Positions 56,081-61,591 of a DNA stretch of 64,000 bases are shown here, in pieces (the stretch's first letter is position 1; every line of letters starts with the position of its first letter). This DNA comes from Hyphomicrobiales bacterium (lineage in GTDB: Bacteria; Pseudomonadota; Alphaproteobacteria; Rhizobiales; Aestuariivirgaceae), in contig JANYHN010000043.1 of NCBI GenBank assembly GCA_025359045.1, positions 1 to 64,000 on the forward strand, written 5' to 3'. A model generated the notes under the pieces. It was not told the DNA's origin and ran no database searches. It saw only the letters and a program-made list of their open reading frames with translations. A program made the translations under genes and the position numbers.

Positions 56081-57088
56081 ATGATGACATTTGACCTTCC
56101 ATTTATCTGGGCCGGGTTGATAGCCTTTGCCGTGCTTGCCTATGTGGTGCTTGATGGTTTTGACTTAGGTGTGGGAATTTTATTTCCCTTCGCCAAGACG
56201 ACTCGTGACCGCGATATCATGATGAATTCTGTGGCCCCAGTGTGGGACGGTAATGAAACCTGGTTGGTGCTGGGCGGCGGCGGATTGCTTGCGGTATTTC
56301 CACTGGCCTATTCGGTTGTCCTTCCCGCGCTTTATGTGCCCTTAATGGCAATGCTTTTGGGTTTAGTGTTACGCGGCGTGGCCTTTGAATTTCGCTGGCA
56401 TACCAAGCGCGGCCAGTTTCTGTGGGATTGGGCTTTCATTGGTGGATCGATAATTGCTGCACTCTCGCAAGGTTTGGCCGTAGGTGCGTTGGTTCAAGGC
56501 ATACCCATGGAGGCTAGGGCCTATGCAGGTGGATGGTGGGATTGGCTGACACCATTTAGCGTGCTTACCAGTATTGCCGTGGTGATGGGTTATGCTTTGC
56601 TGGGCTCCACCTGGTTGGTTCTTAAAACGGAGGGTGCCCTTCAAGAAAGATCAAGGCAACAAGCCTATGTCACAGGTTTGGCCACGCTTATTCTTATTGG
56701 CGTGGTCAGCCAATGGACGCCATTTTTGAGACCGGAATATTTCGGGCGTTGGTTTGCTTGGCCAACCATGATTTTTAGTTTCATTGTGCCATTGCTCGTA
56801 GCGACTTGTGCTTATGGGCTTTATACGGGCCTTCGTGATAAGCGCGATCTTCGGCCCTTTCTCTCAGCACTGGGTATTTTTGTGTTGTGCTTTGTCGGTC
56901 TCGGCATCAGCTTTTATCCCAACATTGTGCCACCAGCACTTTCGATCTGGGATGCTGCTGCCCCTGATAAGAGCTTGGCATTTCTGCTGGTGGGTACAGT
57001 TATTTTAGTGCCTCTTATCTTGGCTTATACGGCCTATTCCTATTGGGTATTTTGGGGGAAAGTGAACCCAGATGAAGGTTATCATTAA
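56081..57088 (+). CDS. cydB: cytochrome bd-type quinol oxidase subunit II
   Basis: A protein of 335 residues with eight or nine membrane segments. It has the CydB N-terminal pattern FIWAGLIAFAVLAYVVLDGFDLGVGILFPF (in parts), MMNSVAPVWDGNETWLVLGGGGLLAVFP and LRGVAFEFRW. It is the structural partner of CydA. TAGGAGTG precedes the ATG. The last A of its TAA is the first base of the small DUF2474 gene. Confidence 0.93.
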   Translation: MMTFDLPFIWAGLIAFAVLAYVVLDGFDLGVGILFPFAKTTRDRDIMMNSVAPVWDGNETWLVLGGGGLLAVFPLAYSVVLPALYVPLMAMLLGLVLRGVAFEFRWHTKRGQFLWDWAFIGGSIIAALSQGLAVGALVQGIPMEARAYAGGWWDWLTPFSVLTSIAVVMGYALLGSTWLVLKTEGALQERSRQQAYVTGLATLILIGVVSQWTPFLRPEYFGRWFAWPTMIFSFIVPLLVATCAYGLYTGLRDKRDLRPFLSALGIFVLCFVGLGISFYPNIVPPALSIWDAAAPDKSLAFLLVGTVILVPLILAYTAYSYWVFWGKVNPDEGYH

Positions 57089-57198
57089 TGGCCATCAACA
57101 AAACTGCACAGCGACTGGTTTGGTTTGTTGTTTATTGGGCGGGTGGCGTAATGGCCGTGGGCGCTGTGGCTTACGGTATTCGGCTGATGATCAAATGA
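57088..57198 (+). CDS. DUF2474-type small subunit of the CIO oxidase (CydX-like)
   Basis: A 36-residue protein beginning MAINKTAQRLVWFVVYWAGG and ending AYGIRLMIK, with a single membrane segment of about 20 residues. Its ATG overlaps the cydB stop by one base (TAATG). Small single-span proteins of this kind (CydX, CydH, DUF2474) are subunits that stabilise bd oxidases, and DUF2474 is the form usually found with CIO-type cydAB; W-F-x-x-Y-W-x-x-G fits it. Length and position argue for a real gene, which automatic calling could miss. Confidence 0.82.
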   Translation: MAINKTAQRLVWFVVYWAGGVMAVGAVAYGIRLMIK

Positions 57199-57268
57199 GT
57201 TTGCCTTAATTAACACTTTGATGCGTCCCTTCACCGGAATTGGCATGTTCACTTTCGGCCAAGGTGTG

Positions 57269-57286
57269 TTAATTTAAATTGCGAAT
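57269..57286 (+). promoter_or_regulatory. repeated motif upstream of the XRE regulator gene
   Basis: TTAATTTAAATTGCGAAT, 44 bp before the regulator ATG. The same sequence with one substitution and one inserted T occurs at 58646-58664 between the unknown gene and the peptide gene. It is a candidate binding site for the regulator. Confidence 0.5.
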
Positions 57287-57329
57287 TGGGAAGGATGTTC
57301 ATTTTGCGACAATATTGGACGGTTAAGTT

Positions 57330-58232
57330 ATGACGAAGTTTGCGAGCAGATATTTTGGCCTGAATTTGCGCATTCAGTGCGACAAATTTGGTTCGATTGC
57401 CGAGGTTTGCAGAGGCACGTCTCTTAATCGGCAACAATTCAATAAATATTTGCGTGGCGAAAATCTGCCGAACGTCCGCACAAGGCGGCGACTTTGCGAA
57501 TTTTTTAATGTCCCCGAGGAAGAAATGTTTGCGCCACCAGATGGTCATAAGTCGGTGGTAAAAGAGGGGATCTATGCGGCTGATGGAACTTTAAAGCCGT
57601 CGCACGACACTTTGAAAAGCTTGGAAGCGATAGCACGAATATTTTTGCAAAGAAATTCAAATTTACCCAAATGCAATTTGGCTGACGGATATTATTATTG
57701 CTACTTCCCACTTCAAAACCAACGCAATTTTTTAGTTCGCGCAGCCATGAAAATTTCGACTTCTCATGGTTTGACCAGTTTTACGAGGCATACTTACTTC
57801 CGATCCGCTGAATTTCCATCAAAGTTCATTGCTCGGGGTAGACATCGTGGTTTGATTATAATGGCAGATGGCGAGACTTATATGTTTGGCATGAATTCAT
57901 TTGAACCGTATCACTTGAGTCTTATAACAGTTCCCAATGGCGTTGACCCAATTAGAATGGGTCTCGGTTTAACACGTGGAATTTCACAATCTCTCACCTG
58001 CAGGGTATGCTTTGAGTTTCTCGGAAACACGTTTTCGGATGCCAAACAGATGGCGAAGTTTGTAGGCGTTATAGGCCTAAACAGTAAGTCAATTCACCCA
58101 TCGATTCGCGCAGCATTTTCGGAACAGGAAGACAATTATCCTGGCCAGCTTGACTTGCCAGCTTTCGAGAAAATTATTGCGTCAATACAAGCCAATCAAC
58201 TGCATAACAGTCTCGAACCACAAAACGCTTAG
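57330..58232 (+). CDS. XRE-type helix-turn-helix transcriptional regulator
   Basis: A protein of 300 residues. Residues 12-65 form a Cro/C1-type helix-turn-helix (NLRIQCDKFGSIAEVCRGTSLNRQQFNKYLRGENLP, in parts, followed by RTRRRLCEFFNVPEEEMF). The remaining 230 residues show no domain that I recognise; they contain DGYYYCYFPLQNQRNFLVRAAMK and FGMNSFEPYHLSLITVPNG, suggesting a ligand-sensing beta-rich domain. It converges on the unknown 119-residue gene with a 2-bp gap. The repeated motif at 57269 and 58646 suggests that it controls itself, that gene, and the peptide-dehydrogenase pair. Confidence 0.8.
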   Translation: MTKFASRYFGLNLRIQCDKFGSIAEVCRGTSLNRQQFNKYLRGENLPNVRTRRRLCEFFNVPEEEMFAPPDGHKSVVKEGIYAADGTLKPSHDTLKSLEAIARIFLQRNSNLPKCNLADGYYYCYFPLQNQRNFLVRAAMKISTSHGLTSFTRHTYFRSAEFPSKFIARGRHRGLIIMADGETYMFGMNSFEPYHLSLITVPNGVDPIRMGLGLTRGISQSLTCRVCFEFLGNTFSDAKQMAKFVGVIGLNSKSIHPSIRAAFSEQEDNYPGQLDLPAFEKIIASIQANQLHNSLEPQNA

Positions 58233-58234
58233 TT

Positions 58235-58594
58235 TTAACCAACTTCCATTTTCTCGAGATGTTTTTTAAACGTTTCAGGATCAACCTCTCCTTCTGCTGC
58301 TGAACACGCCTCATAAAATGTATCTTCCAAATGTTTGGCTATTTTATAAAGGCCGGCAGATTTTGACGCCAACCACAAGCTTCTAACTTGGGTTGCTGTG
58401 TAGGCTGCAACCTCTGTGCTGTGCAGTTTTTGTTTGGATAATTGGTCTAAACTGCTTTTGCCCACCATCAAACGCCTTAACAAATTCCTCGTTTCGATTC
58501 GGGTGCCTTGTAATTTTCGCGGTTCGAAAAACTTACTGTCCTGCATTTTCTGCACCCCCAATTGGTTTGTTATGTTTGCAGAATCTTTATTCAT
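58235..58594 (-). CDS. unknown protein of the peptide locus
   Basis: A protein of 119 residues, charged and mostly helical (TRIETRNLLRRLMVGKSSLDQLSK, VRSLWLASKSAGLYKIAKHLEDTFYEAC, in parts). No signal peptide, membrane segment or known motif is seen. The start may be 58594 or 58546 (MQDSKFFEPRK). It is divergent from the 26-codon peptide gene, sharing a 167-bp promoter region that holds the repeated motif. Its location makes it a candidate partner or immunity/adaptor protein, but this is speculation. Confidence 0.6.
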   Translation of the reverse strand: MNKDSANITNQLGVQKMQDSKFFEPRKLQGTRIETRNLLRRLMVGKSSLDQLSKQKLHSTEVAAYTATQVRSLWLASKSAGLYKIAKHLEDTFYEACSAAEGEVDPETFKKHLEKMEVG

Positions 58595-58645
58595 CGCATT
58601 CGAGGAAAACTCAATTTCTCAATATTTTGCGCAGCTTTCGCATTT

Positions 58646-58664
58646 TTAATTAAAATTTGCGAAT
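58646..58664. promoter_or_regulatory. repeated motif in the unknown gene/peptide gene divergent region
   Basis: TTAATTAAAATTTGCGAAT, related to 57269-57286. It overlaps a larger near-palindrome at 58638-58663, with outer arms TTCGCA and TGCGAA and an inner TTTTAATTAAAA. It lies 52 bp from the unknown gene start and 97 bp from the peptide start. Confidence 0.5.
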
Positions 58665-58761
58665 AGCAGATTCAATTTTGAATACATTCTTCTGAATGGA
58701 TAAGTCTGCAAATTTGTGTGGGCCAATAAGGCGAAAACCTCAAATGACAAAGGATTTCAAA

Positions 58762-58842
58762 ATGACCGCAACTAGCAACAAACAACCCGTTCTTAAGCCA
58801 GCAGCCCTGTCAAAAAAAGGCCTTCATTACAACAAGGTTTAA
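58762..58842 (+). CDS. putative RiPP precursor peptide, 26 residues
   Basis: A short basic peptide beginning MTATSNKQPV and ending SKKGLHYNKV. AAAGGA lies at 58749-58754, exactly 7 nt before the ATG, a better ribosome site than most genes here have. An ATG 18 bp earlier in the same frame would give 32 residues but has a poor site. It is followed by a strong hairpin and then a SagB/ThcOx-type flavin dehydrogenase gene. It lacks cysteine, and Ser/Thr are at positions 2, 4, 5 and 17 only, so classical azole formation near the C-terminus is unlikely; His22 and Tyr23 are more striking. It could also be a leader peptide for attenuation. Confidence 0.5.
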   Translation: MTATSNKQPVLKPAALSKKGLHYNKV

Positions 58843-58858
58843 TTTGCGTTCAACTTCT

Positions 58859-58889
58859 AGGCACTGGAGCCGATTTGGCTTCAGTGCCT
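58859..58889 (+). terminator. hairpin between peptide gene and dehydrogenase gene
   Basis: AGGCACTGGAGCC pairs with GGCTTCAGTGCCT over 13 bp (one G-U) around the loop GATTT. No T tract follows. It starts 16 bp after the peptide stop and ends 30 bp before the dehydrogenase ATG, so it may limit read-through or protect a short peptide mRNA. Confidence 0.6.
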
Positions 58890-58919
58890 CAATTGATTCG
58901 GAAGATCCGGAGTAAAAAC

Positions 58920-60071
58920 ATGAAGGCCGAGGAATATCGCACGTCGCCAACCCTAATAGTCATGCCTGCCAGCAATGAGGACAAATCGCCTGCCAGCAAT
59001 GAGGACAAATCGCCGGGCAGCATTGGTGTGTATGATTATCTCACCAAGAAATATGCTTATGTTTCCATCTCCAACATATATTGGTTGGAATATTTTGCGG
59101 AAAAGAAGTCTTGGCCCCAAGTTCTGTCAGATCACAAAACGGCCAATCCTGAGACTTTAAGCTATGATATCGCAAAACTTACCAATTTAGGATTTCTCGT
59201 GGCGGGTGACGGAGCAGAAGCCAAGAAATATGATCGTTTTTCAAAAGAGTGGAAATGGGATCTGTCTTCTGCACTTTTCCATTTTACAATTTTGGACAAT
59301 GAGTTTGAAAGCCAAGATGAATCTACCTCAATCCAGCTCGCTAAACTTGAACACGACGATCAACCAGCGCTGACTTGGAGAAATGGTTCACACGCTGTCG
59401 CACTGCCTTCGCCGTTTGGCGGAAAAAATGCCGAGCTCTTGAGTTTGATGGCCAAAAGAAGAACCAATCGTACCAATAGTGGCCATGAATTGACAAATGA
59501 AGAGCTTAGCTCATGCCTTTTTGCAGGCCTTGGAATCACCAGTTACGTTGAAACCCCCACAGGTGATTTGCCTCTTTCGATGACGCCTTCAGGGGGAGCG
59601 CGGAATCCATTTGAGGCATTTGTCATCCTGAACCGTGGCGCGGAATTGGCTGCGGGTGTTTACCACTATAGTGGCGCTGAACATTCGCTTAAGAAGCTGC
59701 AAAGCGCTGTACCCGAACAATTACAGCAGTTTTTGGCCAATCAGGAATGGACCAACGATATGGCCGCTGTGATTGTGCTGGTTGCCGTTCTTGAGCGCAC
59801 AATGTGGAAGTATTCAGATGCCAATGCCTACCGTGTGGTTCTCATAGAGGCCGGGCATATTGCGCAAAACATCATGGTGGCAGCGACCAATATGGGGCTT
59901 TGTGCCTGCCCGACAGCAGCCCTCGCACATGGCACTTTGAGTGAACATTTGGGTCTGGAAGCGCTTACGCACACGCCAATTTATGCTCTCACGCTTGCAA
60001 AGCCTTTGCCAAACACGGACAAGATCTACACTAATCCATTTCTACGAGAGAACATTGGCCTTTTAAGTTAA
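58920..60071 (+). CDS. SagB/ThcOx-type flavin dehydrogenase (putative peptide maturation enzyme)
   Basis: A protein of 383 residues. Residues 170-383 are a nitroreductase-fold FMN domain of the SagB/ThcOx group: MAKRRTNR, MTPSGGARNPFEAFVI, GVYHYSGAEHSL and EAGHIAQNIMVAATNMGLCACPTAAL (in parts). The first 160 residues resemble the N-terminal region of so-called peptide maturation dehydrogenases, with IYWLEYFAEKKSW and a FHFT segment, and might bind a leader peptide. Such enzymes oxidise azolines or side chains in RiPPs. I chose ATG 58920, with CCGGAG 8 nt upstream. A duplicated PASNEDKS stretch lies at residues 16-31. No cyclodehydratase is nearby, so the substrate is unknown. Confidence 0.8.
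   Translation: MKAEEYRTSPTLIVMPASNEDKSPASNEDKSPGSIGVYDYLTKKYAYVSISNIYWLEYFAEKKSWPQVLSDHKTANPETLSYDIAKLTNLGFLVAGDGAEAKKYDRFSKEWKWDLSSALFHFTILDNEFESQDESTSIQLAKLEHDDQPALTWRNGSHAVALPSPFGGKNAELLSLMAKRRTNRTNSGHELTNEELSSCLFAGLGITSYVETPTGDLPLSMTPSGGARNPFEAFVILNRGAELAAGVYHYSGAEHSLKKLQSAVPEQLQQFLANQEWTNDMAAVIVLVAVLERTMWKYSDANAYRVVLIEAGHIAQNIMVAATNMGLCACPTAALAHGTLSEHLGLEALTHTPIYALTLAKPLPNTDKIYTNPFLRENIGLLS
58965..59012 (+). repeat. in-frame 24-bp tandem duplication in the dehydrogenase gene
   Basis: CCTGCCAGCAATGAGGACAA followed by ATCG is repeated exactly twice, head to tail, encoding PASNEDKS twice. Perfect identity suggests a recent event. It lies in a variable N-terminal stretch, outside the catalytic domain. 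Confidence 0.9.
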
Positions 60072-60661
60072 CCGAGCATCAAAACTCGCGTGCCGACCTG
60101 AACGTGATCATAAAGATGCACTACATCCACGTTTAGCATGCCAATGCAGCCTGCTGTATGTTTTTGACCAATATCAATGGGCTTTGCACCGCCATGAATG
60201 CGGTTGATGGTGTCAACCTCGCCTTTATAAAGATAAAGCGCACGGGCACCCAAAGGATTATCGGGGCCACCGGGCATGCCATTTGGCAGATATTTCGCAA
60301 GATCAGGTTTCACAGCAATATGATATGGGGCTGGCGTCCAAACAGGCCACTCAGCCATTTTCTTTATAACAACTTCACCTGTCCAAGCTTTGGTGCTCTT
60401 GCCCACCGAAACACCATAGCGCCGCGCTTGGCCCGCCCCCAAAACAAGATATAAAAACCGATAAACCGGATCGATGATGATTGTGCCTGGGGGCTCATTT
60501 GACTGATAGGCCATTTCGCGGCGCTGATATTTGTATTCAACTTCCTTGGCTTCAGATGCATTGATCTTGAAGGGCTCAGATGCTGCGGCTTGGCCTTGAA
60601 GCTTGAACAATAGACCGCCTGATAGCCCGGAGCTTATAAGATCACGACGCGAGATTCCCAT
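60068..60661 (-). CDS. L,D-transpeptidase, YkuD family
   Basis: A protein of 197 residues with an N-terminal SRRDLISSG and hydrophobic stretch suggesting Tat export. The YkuD domain has IHGGAKPIDIGQKHTAGCIGML, with the catalytic Cys in the GC-I and the preceding His. It forms 3-3 cross-links in peptidoglycan or attaches proteins to it, in the periplasm. Its stop codon overlaps that of the SagB-type gene by 4 bp, so the two are convergent. tRNA-Ser lies just upstream. Confidence 0.9.
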   Translation of the reverse strand: MGISRRDLISSGLSGGLLFKLQGQAAASEPFKINASEAKEVEYKYQRREMAYQSNEPPGTIIIDPVYRFLYLVLGAGQARRYGVSVGKSTKAWTGEVVIKKMAEWPVWTPAPYHIAVKPDLAKYLPNGMPGGPDNPLGARALYLYKGEVDTINRIHGGAKPIDIGQKHTAGCIGMLNVDVVHLYDHVQVGTRVLMLG

Positions 60662-60685
60662 GGCCTAATCCTTTGCTCAAAGAAT

Positions 60686-60776
60686 TGGCGGAAGAAGAGG
60701 GATTCGAACCCTCGGTAGGCTATTAACCTACGCACGCGTTCCAGGCGTGTGCCTTAAACCACTCGGCCATCCTTCC
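60686..60776 (-). tRNA. tRNA-Ser (anticodon GGA)
   Basis: 91 nt including encoded CCA. The acceptor stem GGAAGGA pairs with TCTTCC-region bases (one G-U); the anticodon stem CACGC/GCGTG holds loop CTGGAAC with anticodon GGA; there is a long variable arm GTAGGTTAATAGCCTAC as in class II tRNAs; the T stem is GAGGG/CCCTC with TTCGAAT. It reads UCC and UCU codons. Confidence 0.95.
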
Positions 60777-60937
60777 GCTGTTTATATCACGGTTGGCTTG
60801 GAACTGGTAACGGCCACCACGTGTTTGGTCACGGGGGAGTAGCCTATTGTGACCGTCTGTTCAAGCACTTGTGACTTCAAAAATACTGCTCGAATTCCTA
60901 TCTCAACAGAGTAAAACGAAGAAAGAGGAGATACCCC

Positions 60938-61591
60938 ATGTTGTTTTCCCGCCGTAAACCTGAAGCCGTTTCAGCTGCTGATGCCTTGCCGGGGCGTTCT
61001 GCTGCAATCCCAACAGCCCAAAACCATTTCGTAAGTGGCCATGCTTTGAAAGGGCCTTACCCTGAAGGCAGCCAACAGATTATTTTTGCCCTTGGGTGTT
61101 ACTGGGGTGCTGAGCGTAAATTTTGGGAAGTGCCCGGTGTCTGGGTGACAGCTGTTGGCAACGCCGGTGGTTTTTCGCCCAATCCCACTTACGAGGAAGT
61201 TTGTTCCGGCATGACCGGACATGCCGAATCAGTTGTGGTGGTATTTGATCCTGCTCAGGTCAGTCTTGAGCAGTTGCTGAAAGTTTTTTACGAAGCTCAT
61301 AATCCTACCCAGCGTAACGCTCAGGGCAACGATGTGGGCACTCAATATCGTTCAGCAATTTATTGGACTGATCCGGCGCAGGAGGAAACCGTGCGGATGG
61401 CAACAGACACTTATCAAACTGCTTTGACAAAAGCTGGCATGGGTAAAATCACCACTGAGCTTGCCGCTGCCGGGCCATTCTATTTTGCTGAGGCTTATCA
61501 TCAACAGTATCTGGCGAAGAATCCCAGTGGTTATTGCGGGTTGGGCGGTACTGGCGTTTCCTGCCCGATTGGGATTGGTGTTGCTGCTTGA
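60938..61591 (+). CDS. msrA: peptide methionine sulfoxide reductase A
   Basis: A protein of 217 residues. The catalytic Cys54 is in [12 protein letters not shown]; the family usually has GCFWG, so Tyr replaces Phe. [35 protein letters not shown] and a C-terminal resolving cysteine in [14 protein letters not shown] are present. It reduces Met-S-sulfoxide in proteins with thioredoxin. GAGGAGA precedes the ATG. The following regulator starts inside its stop, so the two are co-transcribed. Confidence 0.95.

Follow-up and report, generated by a model that had tools for sequence, protein, structure and literature searches.

A short peptide gene conserved upstream of a SagB/ThcOx-type dehydrogenase in Hyphomicrobiales: a putative three-gene cassette for a modified ribosomal peptide

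Results

The DNA analysed here (the window) is a stretch of 64,000 nt of contig JANYHN010000043.1 from a Hyphomicrobiales bacterium (assembly GCA_025359045.1). Towards its end, a gene for a helix-turn-helix (HTH) regulator, a 26-codon gene and a gene for a SagB/ThcOx-type dehydrogenase follow one another on the forward strand (Table 1), and we consider them to be a probable cassette for a ribosomally synthesized and post-translationally modified peptide (RiPP). The original prediction, which was made from the sequence alone, had described the 26-codon gene without Cys, the AAAGGA motif exactly 7 nt upstream of its ATG, the 13-bp hairpin behind it and the 383-residue SagB/ThcOx-type enzyme. All four were found as described, and the conserved HTH regulator gene had been overlooked. 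The 26-codon open reading frame (ORF) translates to MTATSNKQPVLKPAALSKKGLHYNKV, which contains no Cys. Its frame stays open upstream as far as an ATG at position 58696, and the start given in Table 1 is supported since the closest relative (locus L025 of genome G020) keeps only the ATG at 58762. The enzyme matched the SagB model TIGR03605 with 109.6 bits (cut-off 78.4) and the nitroreductase family PF00881 with 71.4 bits.

Table 1 Features of the putative cassette in the window
Feature	Position	Strand	Basis or remarks
HTH (XRE-like) regulator gene, first in the cassette	57330..58232	+	300 aa; C-terminal domain unnamed
Palindrome TTCGCA-N15-TGCGAA, candidate regulator site 5′ of the precursor gene	58637..58663	.	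sequence
AAAGGA, Shine-Dalgarno-like, ATG 7 nt downstream	58749..58754	+	sequence
26-codon gene for a precursor-like peptide with the conserved C-terminus GLHYNKV	58762..58842	+	family, selection, co-occurrence and decay
13-bp hairpin separating the precursor gene from the enzyme gene	58859..58889	+	sequence
SagB/ThcOx-type flavin mononucleotide (FMN) dehydrogenase, 383 aa	58920..60071	+	TIGR03605; PDB relatives ThcOx (CyaGox) and McbC
Enzyme N-terminal region, residues 24-96, candidate RiPP recognition element (RRE)/PqqD-like peptide-binding domain	58989..59207	+	hhalign, weak
Lys297-Tyr298, aligned on McbC Lys201-Tyr202	59808..59813	+	HMMER alignment

The short gene and the enzyme gene are a conserved pair and not a chance association. 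An ATG-initiated ORF of 20–60 codons whose product ends in [YFL][NDR][KNA]x (loose tail) was present upstream of the enzyme gene in 31 of 32 loci, and the strict tail [YFL][ND]Kx in 29 of these 32 usable loci. The count started from 35 loci and excludes L038 and L104, in which the contig ends before the peptide, and the remote paralogue L039; the weak matches L017, L018 and L019 and the plasmid SagB genes L022–L024 were not covered by the upstream search. The only exception, L110, has an intact peptide gene located outside the searched stretch, because its broken enzyme gene displaces the search window. Outside a single genus, designated g70, the loose tail was found in 19/19 loci and the strict one in 17/19, compared with 26 and 4, respectively, of 7135 random windows drawn from these non-g70 loci; the loose pattern had been derived from the same loci in which it was counted. 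A conserved short gene upstream of homologous dehydrogenases, proposed in the original prediction as a test, is thus present, with its tail in a fixed register.

Twenty representative peptides of 26–42 residues were compared, two of them from the window and G020 and one from g70. Position −4 from the C-terminus was occupied by Tyr (12), Phe (5) or Leu (3) in all of them, position −3 by Asn (15) or Asp (3), position −2 by Lys in 18 and position −7 by Gly in 16, while position −1 was variable. The N-terminal halves diverge from clade to clade, and the net charge is positive in 18 of the peptides. The conserved part is the C-terminal stretch, which had already been singled out in the window peptide as SKKGLHYNKV. 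Sixteen peptides lack Cys altogether, and the last seven residues are free of Cys, Ser and Thr in the window peptide and in 12 of the 20 overall. None of the 20 matched an NCBIfam model, so that other genes of the SagB family may adjoin precursors which are not annotated. A search of open-licence papers, a body which most subscription papers lie outside, returned no report of such a peptide; its matches to the tail letters appeared, by their titles and the beginnings of their abstracts, to concern other proteins.

The peptide gene evolves under purifying selection as a coding sequence. Its 31-codon version in g70 occurs in 27 variants that differ in their nucleotides; across these, the ratio of nonsynonymous to synonymous change (pN/pS, pooled and uncorrected) was 0.15, and residues 25–31 (GMHYNKR) were invariant. 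Similarly, the peptide genes of the window and G020 differ by six synonymous and three nonsynonymous changes (pS 0.33, pN 0.05). Selection on the 26 codons as coding sequence, the other test suggested originally, was therefore found in both comparisons. The last seven g70 codons are almost devoid of synonymous change, with only that of Gly25 varying, which has to be read cautiously since four of them are two-fold codons and one encodes Met.

The peptide gene also accompanies the enzyme gene within g70, where its DNA was detected in 50 of 144 genomes, namely in all 46 enzyme-bearing ones and in four others. Three of these four (G1164, G1186 and G1190) carry a deletion that begins near codon 24 of the peptide gene and ends within the last quarter of the enzyme gene; this common deletion (loci L143, L144 and L145) is a remnant of a lost cassette. 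In G1195 the enzyme gene is deleted and the peptide gene is still open, but its tail now reads AMHDNKR: Gly at −7 and Tyr at −4, both invariant in the 27 variants, have been lost together with three other changes. The change in the tail is what a substrate would be predicted to undergo after the loss of its enzyme, and it represents one event in one genome. Two further genomes, G1255 and G1258, have broken enzyme frames and retain a full-length peptide gene. In the enzyme tree, in which 6 of the 21 inner branches are poorly supported and L022–L024 are among the outgroups, the three loci with Leu at −4 form one clade (support 100/99) and all GMxY tails fall into one nine-row clade (98/98) that includes the Leu clade. 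Enzyme distance and tail distance were correlated (Mantel r 0.33, p 0.0012, N 20), which partly reflects shared descent.

All 15 aligned enzymes matched TIGR03605 at E ≤ 0.01, and Lys297-Tyr298 is invariant in all of them. According to the HMMER alignment, from which the McbC residue numbers were counted, this pair corresponds to Lys201-Tyr202 of McbC, which we take to be catalytic. In the related BmdC, the conserved Tyr260 was described as the likely general base (PMC8795117; this and the other papers given by PMC number are cited from excerpts). A 24-bp tandem duplication at 58965-59012 of the window doubles the residues PASNEDKS of the enzyme, which occur as a single copy in a 93% identical relative.

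A search with the single protein matched 18 of 61 genomes, this one included, although the match in G007 is a fragment and those in G058, G059 and G026 are weak. With the alignment of 15 enzymes as the query and E limits from 1e-30 to 1e-60 depending on the sample, matches were obtained in 16/69 genomes of the family, 13/397 of the order, 1/385 of the class sample (this genome), 5/398 of the phylum sample (four g70 genomes besides this one) and 46/146 genomes of g70, which are mostly 6–9 Mb in size. The subfamily is therefore patchily distributed and, within the samples searched and the E limits applied, restricted to a single order. An enzyme with 43% identity is encoded on a plasmid record named Roseateles sp. 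XES5 (marked UNVERIFIED_ORG), and remoter SagB genes are frequent on plasmids (86 records). The possibility that the enzyme gene is a phage gene was rejected, as a single distant phage record was found and viral contigs gave no confirmed relative.

The regulator gene is the only other gene that recurs throughout the enzyme loci. A homologue was detected near the enzyme gene by tblastn in 30 of the 35 loci, as a rule about 1.1–1.7 kb upstream; in L034 it lies downstream and is inverted. The five loci without it comprise two contig ends, one remote paralogue and the true exceptions L029 and L032. Pfam HTH models matched residues 22–67 of the regulator weakly, below their cut-offs, and matches to the regulator at E ≤ 1e-15 were present in 24 of 61 genomes, counting this one. 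A palindrome TTCGC-N3-20-GCGAA occurred in 7/19 upstream regions compared with 32/5595 random windows (0.6%), with varying spacing and as a motif that was picked after inspection of these regions. In several genomes of the genus, including this one (L118, L119, L122, L123, L125 and L126), a gene that we assume to be DnaB-like is followed by a paralogue of the regulator, and in most of these loci a presumably alanine-racemase-like gene lies further on.

An EamA-type transporter is encoded directly 3′ of the enzyme gene, in the same orientation, in the three loci with the tail LNKA (L036, L102 and L103); PF00892 was matched with 141 and 135 bits by the two of these three proteins that were scanned. 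It is a candidate exporter peculiar to this clade. The earlier statement that no exporter is present thus applies to the locus in the window and does not hold for the LNKA clade. Neighbour clusters were judged by position and sequence and not all were annotated, and greedy ORF calling overlooks genes where the GC content is high. Genes for ABC-type ATPases, which formed a cluster over 16 loci, were read as chance neighbours, being of mixed kinds and scattered from −7.2 to +8.5 kb. Between the regulator and peptide genes of the window there is an antisense ORF of 119 codons (58235-58594, minus strand) without a Pfam or NCBIfam match; it was rejected as a member of the cassette since it clusters only with its counterpart in the nearest relative, G020. 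A tRNA-Ser(GGA) gene (60686-60776, minus strand) lies 0.6 kb past the enzyme gene, and nothing but this tRNA reached the gathering score in an Rfam scan of 57000-61000. A remoter SagB-like enzyme at L141 (genome G923) is preceded by a 23-codon ORF of different sequence and accompanied by a gene for 340 aa and then a transporter-like gene, possibly another peptide system.

The lack of a YcaO gene at the locus, as stated in the original prediction, extends to the whole genome: a search for YcaO (PF02624) gave no match in 12 of the 24 enzyme-bearing genomes, including this one, which is 93% complete. Five other genomes without YcaO (G020, G004, G027, G1180, which is a single contig, and G1248) are all rated 100% complete. 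YcaO genes were found in the other 12 enzyme-bearing genomes.

A strong hairpin, defined as one above all 15 shuffles of the same bases within 70 nt after the stop codon, begins 0–16 nt after the peptide gene in 20 of 21 loci, and its sequence differs from locus to locus. Only 5 of the 21 hairpins have a T-rich tail (at least five T in the next eight bases), and pairing of the ORF with a hairpin arm was no higher than in shuffles (mean z −0.18). An attenuator controlled by a leader peptide was not favoured on these two grounds, and a role in stabilizing or processing the mRNA appears to fit the hairpin better.

Discussion

The results obtained by us make it probable that the three genes constitute a RiPP-type cassette of regulator, precursor and dehydrogenase, in which one FMN enzyme oxidizes the tail of the peptide. 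The locus links a short encoded precursor-like peptide to a putative tailoring enzyme, which is one of the traits of RiPP systems. The proposal of a compact modified-peptide system is thereby supported, as neither the lack of a conserved short gene nor the lack of coding selection, the two results named as refuting it, was encountered. The family and its sequence conservation make us strongly inclined to regard the peptide as the substrate of the enzyme, and oxidation at or next to the residue at −4 as somewhat more probable than oxidation elsewhere. That the product carries a dehydro-amino acid at −4 itself is put forward tentatively. It is favoured because −4 is always Tyr, Phe or Leu and by analogy with two precedents: the nitroreductase domain of PflD, which makes Z-dehydroPhe in a ribosomal peptide (PMC12636437, a preprint), and AlbAB, which performs α,β-dehydrogenation (PMC11055893).

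What we infer about the enzyme's substrate, the position and nature of the oxidation, the leader and core roles and the control by the regulator is as follows. The HTH protein would control a short operon, in which the 26-codon gene would make a basic precursor whose core would be formed by the last residues Gly-x-x-[Tyr/Phe/Leu]-Asn-Lys-x. The SagB/ThcOx-type enzyme would bind this peptide without any cyclodehydratase, perhaps via its RRE-like N-terminal region, and would oxidize the tail using FMN. With Lys297-Tyr298 as the base and the flavin as the hydride acceptor, the residue at −4 would undergo Cα/Cβ dehydrogenation and the product would contain dehydro-Tyr, dehydro-Phe or dehydro-Leu (−2 Da). 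A likely role of the hairpin is protection or processing of the mRNA, by which the precursor would be produced in excess over the enzyme.

Several observations weigh against this interpretation. The tail itself varies, deviants including YRNS, YRAE, LNKA and AMSYDKR, and no such tail was found within 500 nt upstream of the enzyme start in the remote relative L039. Cys, Ser or Thr occur within the last seven residues of 8 of the 20 peptides, so that azoline chemistry is conceivable for individual peptides. The N-terminal region of the enzyme may be an RRE/PqqD-like peptide-binding domain, but its match to the PF05402 profile in hhalign is weak (E 0.0003, probability 40, 67 columns; E 0.49 for the C-terminal domain as a control), and the Pfam model PqqD matched none of the 15 enzymes. 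The predicted structure of the enzyme had a mean pLDDT (predicted local distance difference test) of 29, and that of the regulator, which is fair only around the HTH (residues 6–69), one of 43. Moreover, the regulator is not exclusive to the cassette, as several copies elsewhere have no recurring SagB neighbour, and no protease, immunity gene, tailoring cluster or other transporter occupies a fixed place across the non-g70 loci.

The short ORF might instead be a regulatory leader peptide, at which a ribosome pause together with the hairpin controls a dehydrogenase acting on another molecule. Such an arrangement would agree with the position of the conserved part directly 5′ of the stop codon, with the hairpin close behind it and with the scarcity of synonymous change in the last seven g70 codons. 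Since the C-terminal residue is not conserved, each of the three stop codons is used in some of the loci, the ORF has no run of one codon and the hairpins show neither regular T-rich tails nor excess pairing with the ORF, we consider it improbable; moreover, the PDB relatives ThcOx and McbC have peptide substrates. Another explanation is that the peptide is a small accessory subunit for folding or assembly of the enzyme, as AlbB, a small protein, is for AlbA, the true substrate lying elsewhere. The strict co-occurrence in g70 and the co-variation of enzyme and tail are what such a subunit would show as well, and the cyclodipeptide oxidase AlbAB has been described to form a filament (PMC11055893). 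A length of 26–42 residues, a variable N-terminal half and a single conserved tail look more like a substrate. To our knowledge, other SagB-type enzymes need no such small partner, and a role as a subunit is decidedly improbable.

A conventional azol(in)e pathway with its cyclodehydratase encoded elsewhere in the genome would be in line with the relationship of the enzyme to SagB, ThcOx and McbC and with the YcaO genes in 12 of the 24 enzyme-bearing genomes. We reject it as the main explanation because the other half of these genomes, among them the present one and the complete G1180 and G1248, yielded no YcaO; most peptides are Cys-free and most lack Cys, Ser and Thr near the C-terminus, and the pathway is highly improbable as a general account of the family. 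If the peptide is indeed the substrate, the enzyme could still modify the conserved Asn-Lys or Gly, for instance by oxidizing Lys or changing the backbone, rather than the residue at −4. Lys at −2 and Asn or Asp at −3 (18 peptides each) and Gly at −7 (16) are well enough conserved for this. We hold a site there to be unlikely, as only −4 is restricted to Tyr, Phe or Leu in all 20 and the nearest characterized YcaO-free chemistry found is the dehydrogenation of Phe (PMC12636437).

As to the function of the modified peptide, one can speculate that it serves as a signal to the regulator or, in loci with a transporter gene, that it is exported. A more far-reaching version of the favoured interpretation is a one-enzyme RiPP class in Hyphomicrobiales that desaturates Tyr, Phe or Leu at −4 and whose product binds to the neighbouring HTH regulator as its ligand. 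If true, it would be a minimal peptide signalling circuit, patchily spread through the order. It is rather unlikely in this complete form, the ligand role being weakened because the transporter gene of one clade agrees at least equally well with export of the product. YcaO-free nitroreductases were called rare and functionally uncharacterized in a 2025 preprint, the authors of which believe that theirs is the first dehydroPhe in a RiPP (PMC12636437). The cassette described here, if the proposed interpretation is correct, would be among the smallest routes to a modified peptide. With such a short parts list, one small peptide and one enzyme, the family makes YcaO-independent peptide dehydrogenation testable.

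SagB-type enzymes are usually regarded as azoline dehydrogenases which act after a YcaO enzyme. The enzyme in the window shares with ThcOx, McbC and SagB the nitroreductase family by sequence, the PSGGA motif and the Lys-Tyr pair. By description, the substrates of those enzymes are azolines formed by a YcaO enzyme, which is not needed here. With no YcaO found in this genome and the last seven residues of the window peptide free of Cys, Ser and Thr, the system is not a member of the linear azol(in)e-containing peptides (LAP), also called thiazole/oxazole-modified microcins (TOMM).

The best-scoring curated enzyme family was TIGR04511 (SagB_rel_DH_2, putative peptide maturation dehydrogenase), which all 15 aligned enzymes match. 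The window enzyme (132.4 bits) remains under its cut-off of 240 and is not a member of a TIGR04511 system. Three of four loci above this cut-off have an upstream ORF of 841–893 codons, the start of which we take to be cyclase-like, and one has an 84-codon ORF, presumably an NHLP-type precursor; none of the short ORFs listed upstream of these four loci has a YNK-like tail. Neither the cyclase-like gene nor the long precursor recurs in the loci described here.

The cofactors pyrroloquinoline quinone (PQQ) and mycofactocin are also derived from very short precursors with the functional residues towards the C-terminus, by means of radical S-adenosylmethionine (SAM) enzymes and several further genes. 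No cluster of such a size recurs around the dehydrogenase. Branch 6 of the graspetides resembles our system in that its predicted RiPP loci contain a SagB-like enzyme whose partner does not belong to azole pathways, and differs from it in that the partner is an ATP-grasp ligase (which was not searched for here) and in its precursor families (PMC8939145). The cyclodipeptide oxidases, such as AlbAB, are by description similar in their flavin-dependent α,β-dehydrogenation of amino acid residues (PMC11055893), whereas their substrates are cyclic dipeptides and not ribosomal precursors. PflD of the pfl/pos clusters differs in being fused to an MNIO enzyme, in its precursor tail and in clustering with an HEXXH enzyme, a GNAT protein and transporters. 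It is nevertheless, like the enzyme proposed here, a flavin nitroreductase which, according to the preprint, works without YcaO and acts as a dehydrogenase on an aromatic residue in a ribosomally made peptide (PMC12636437).

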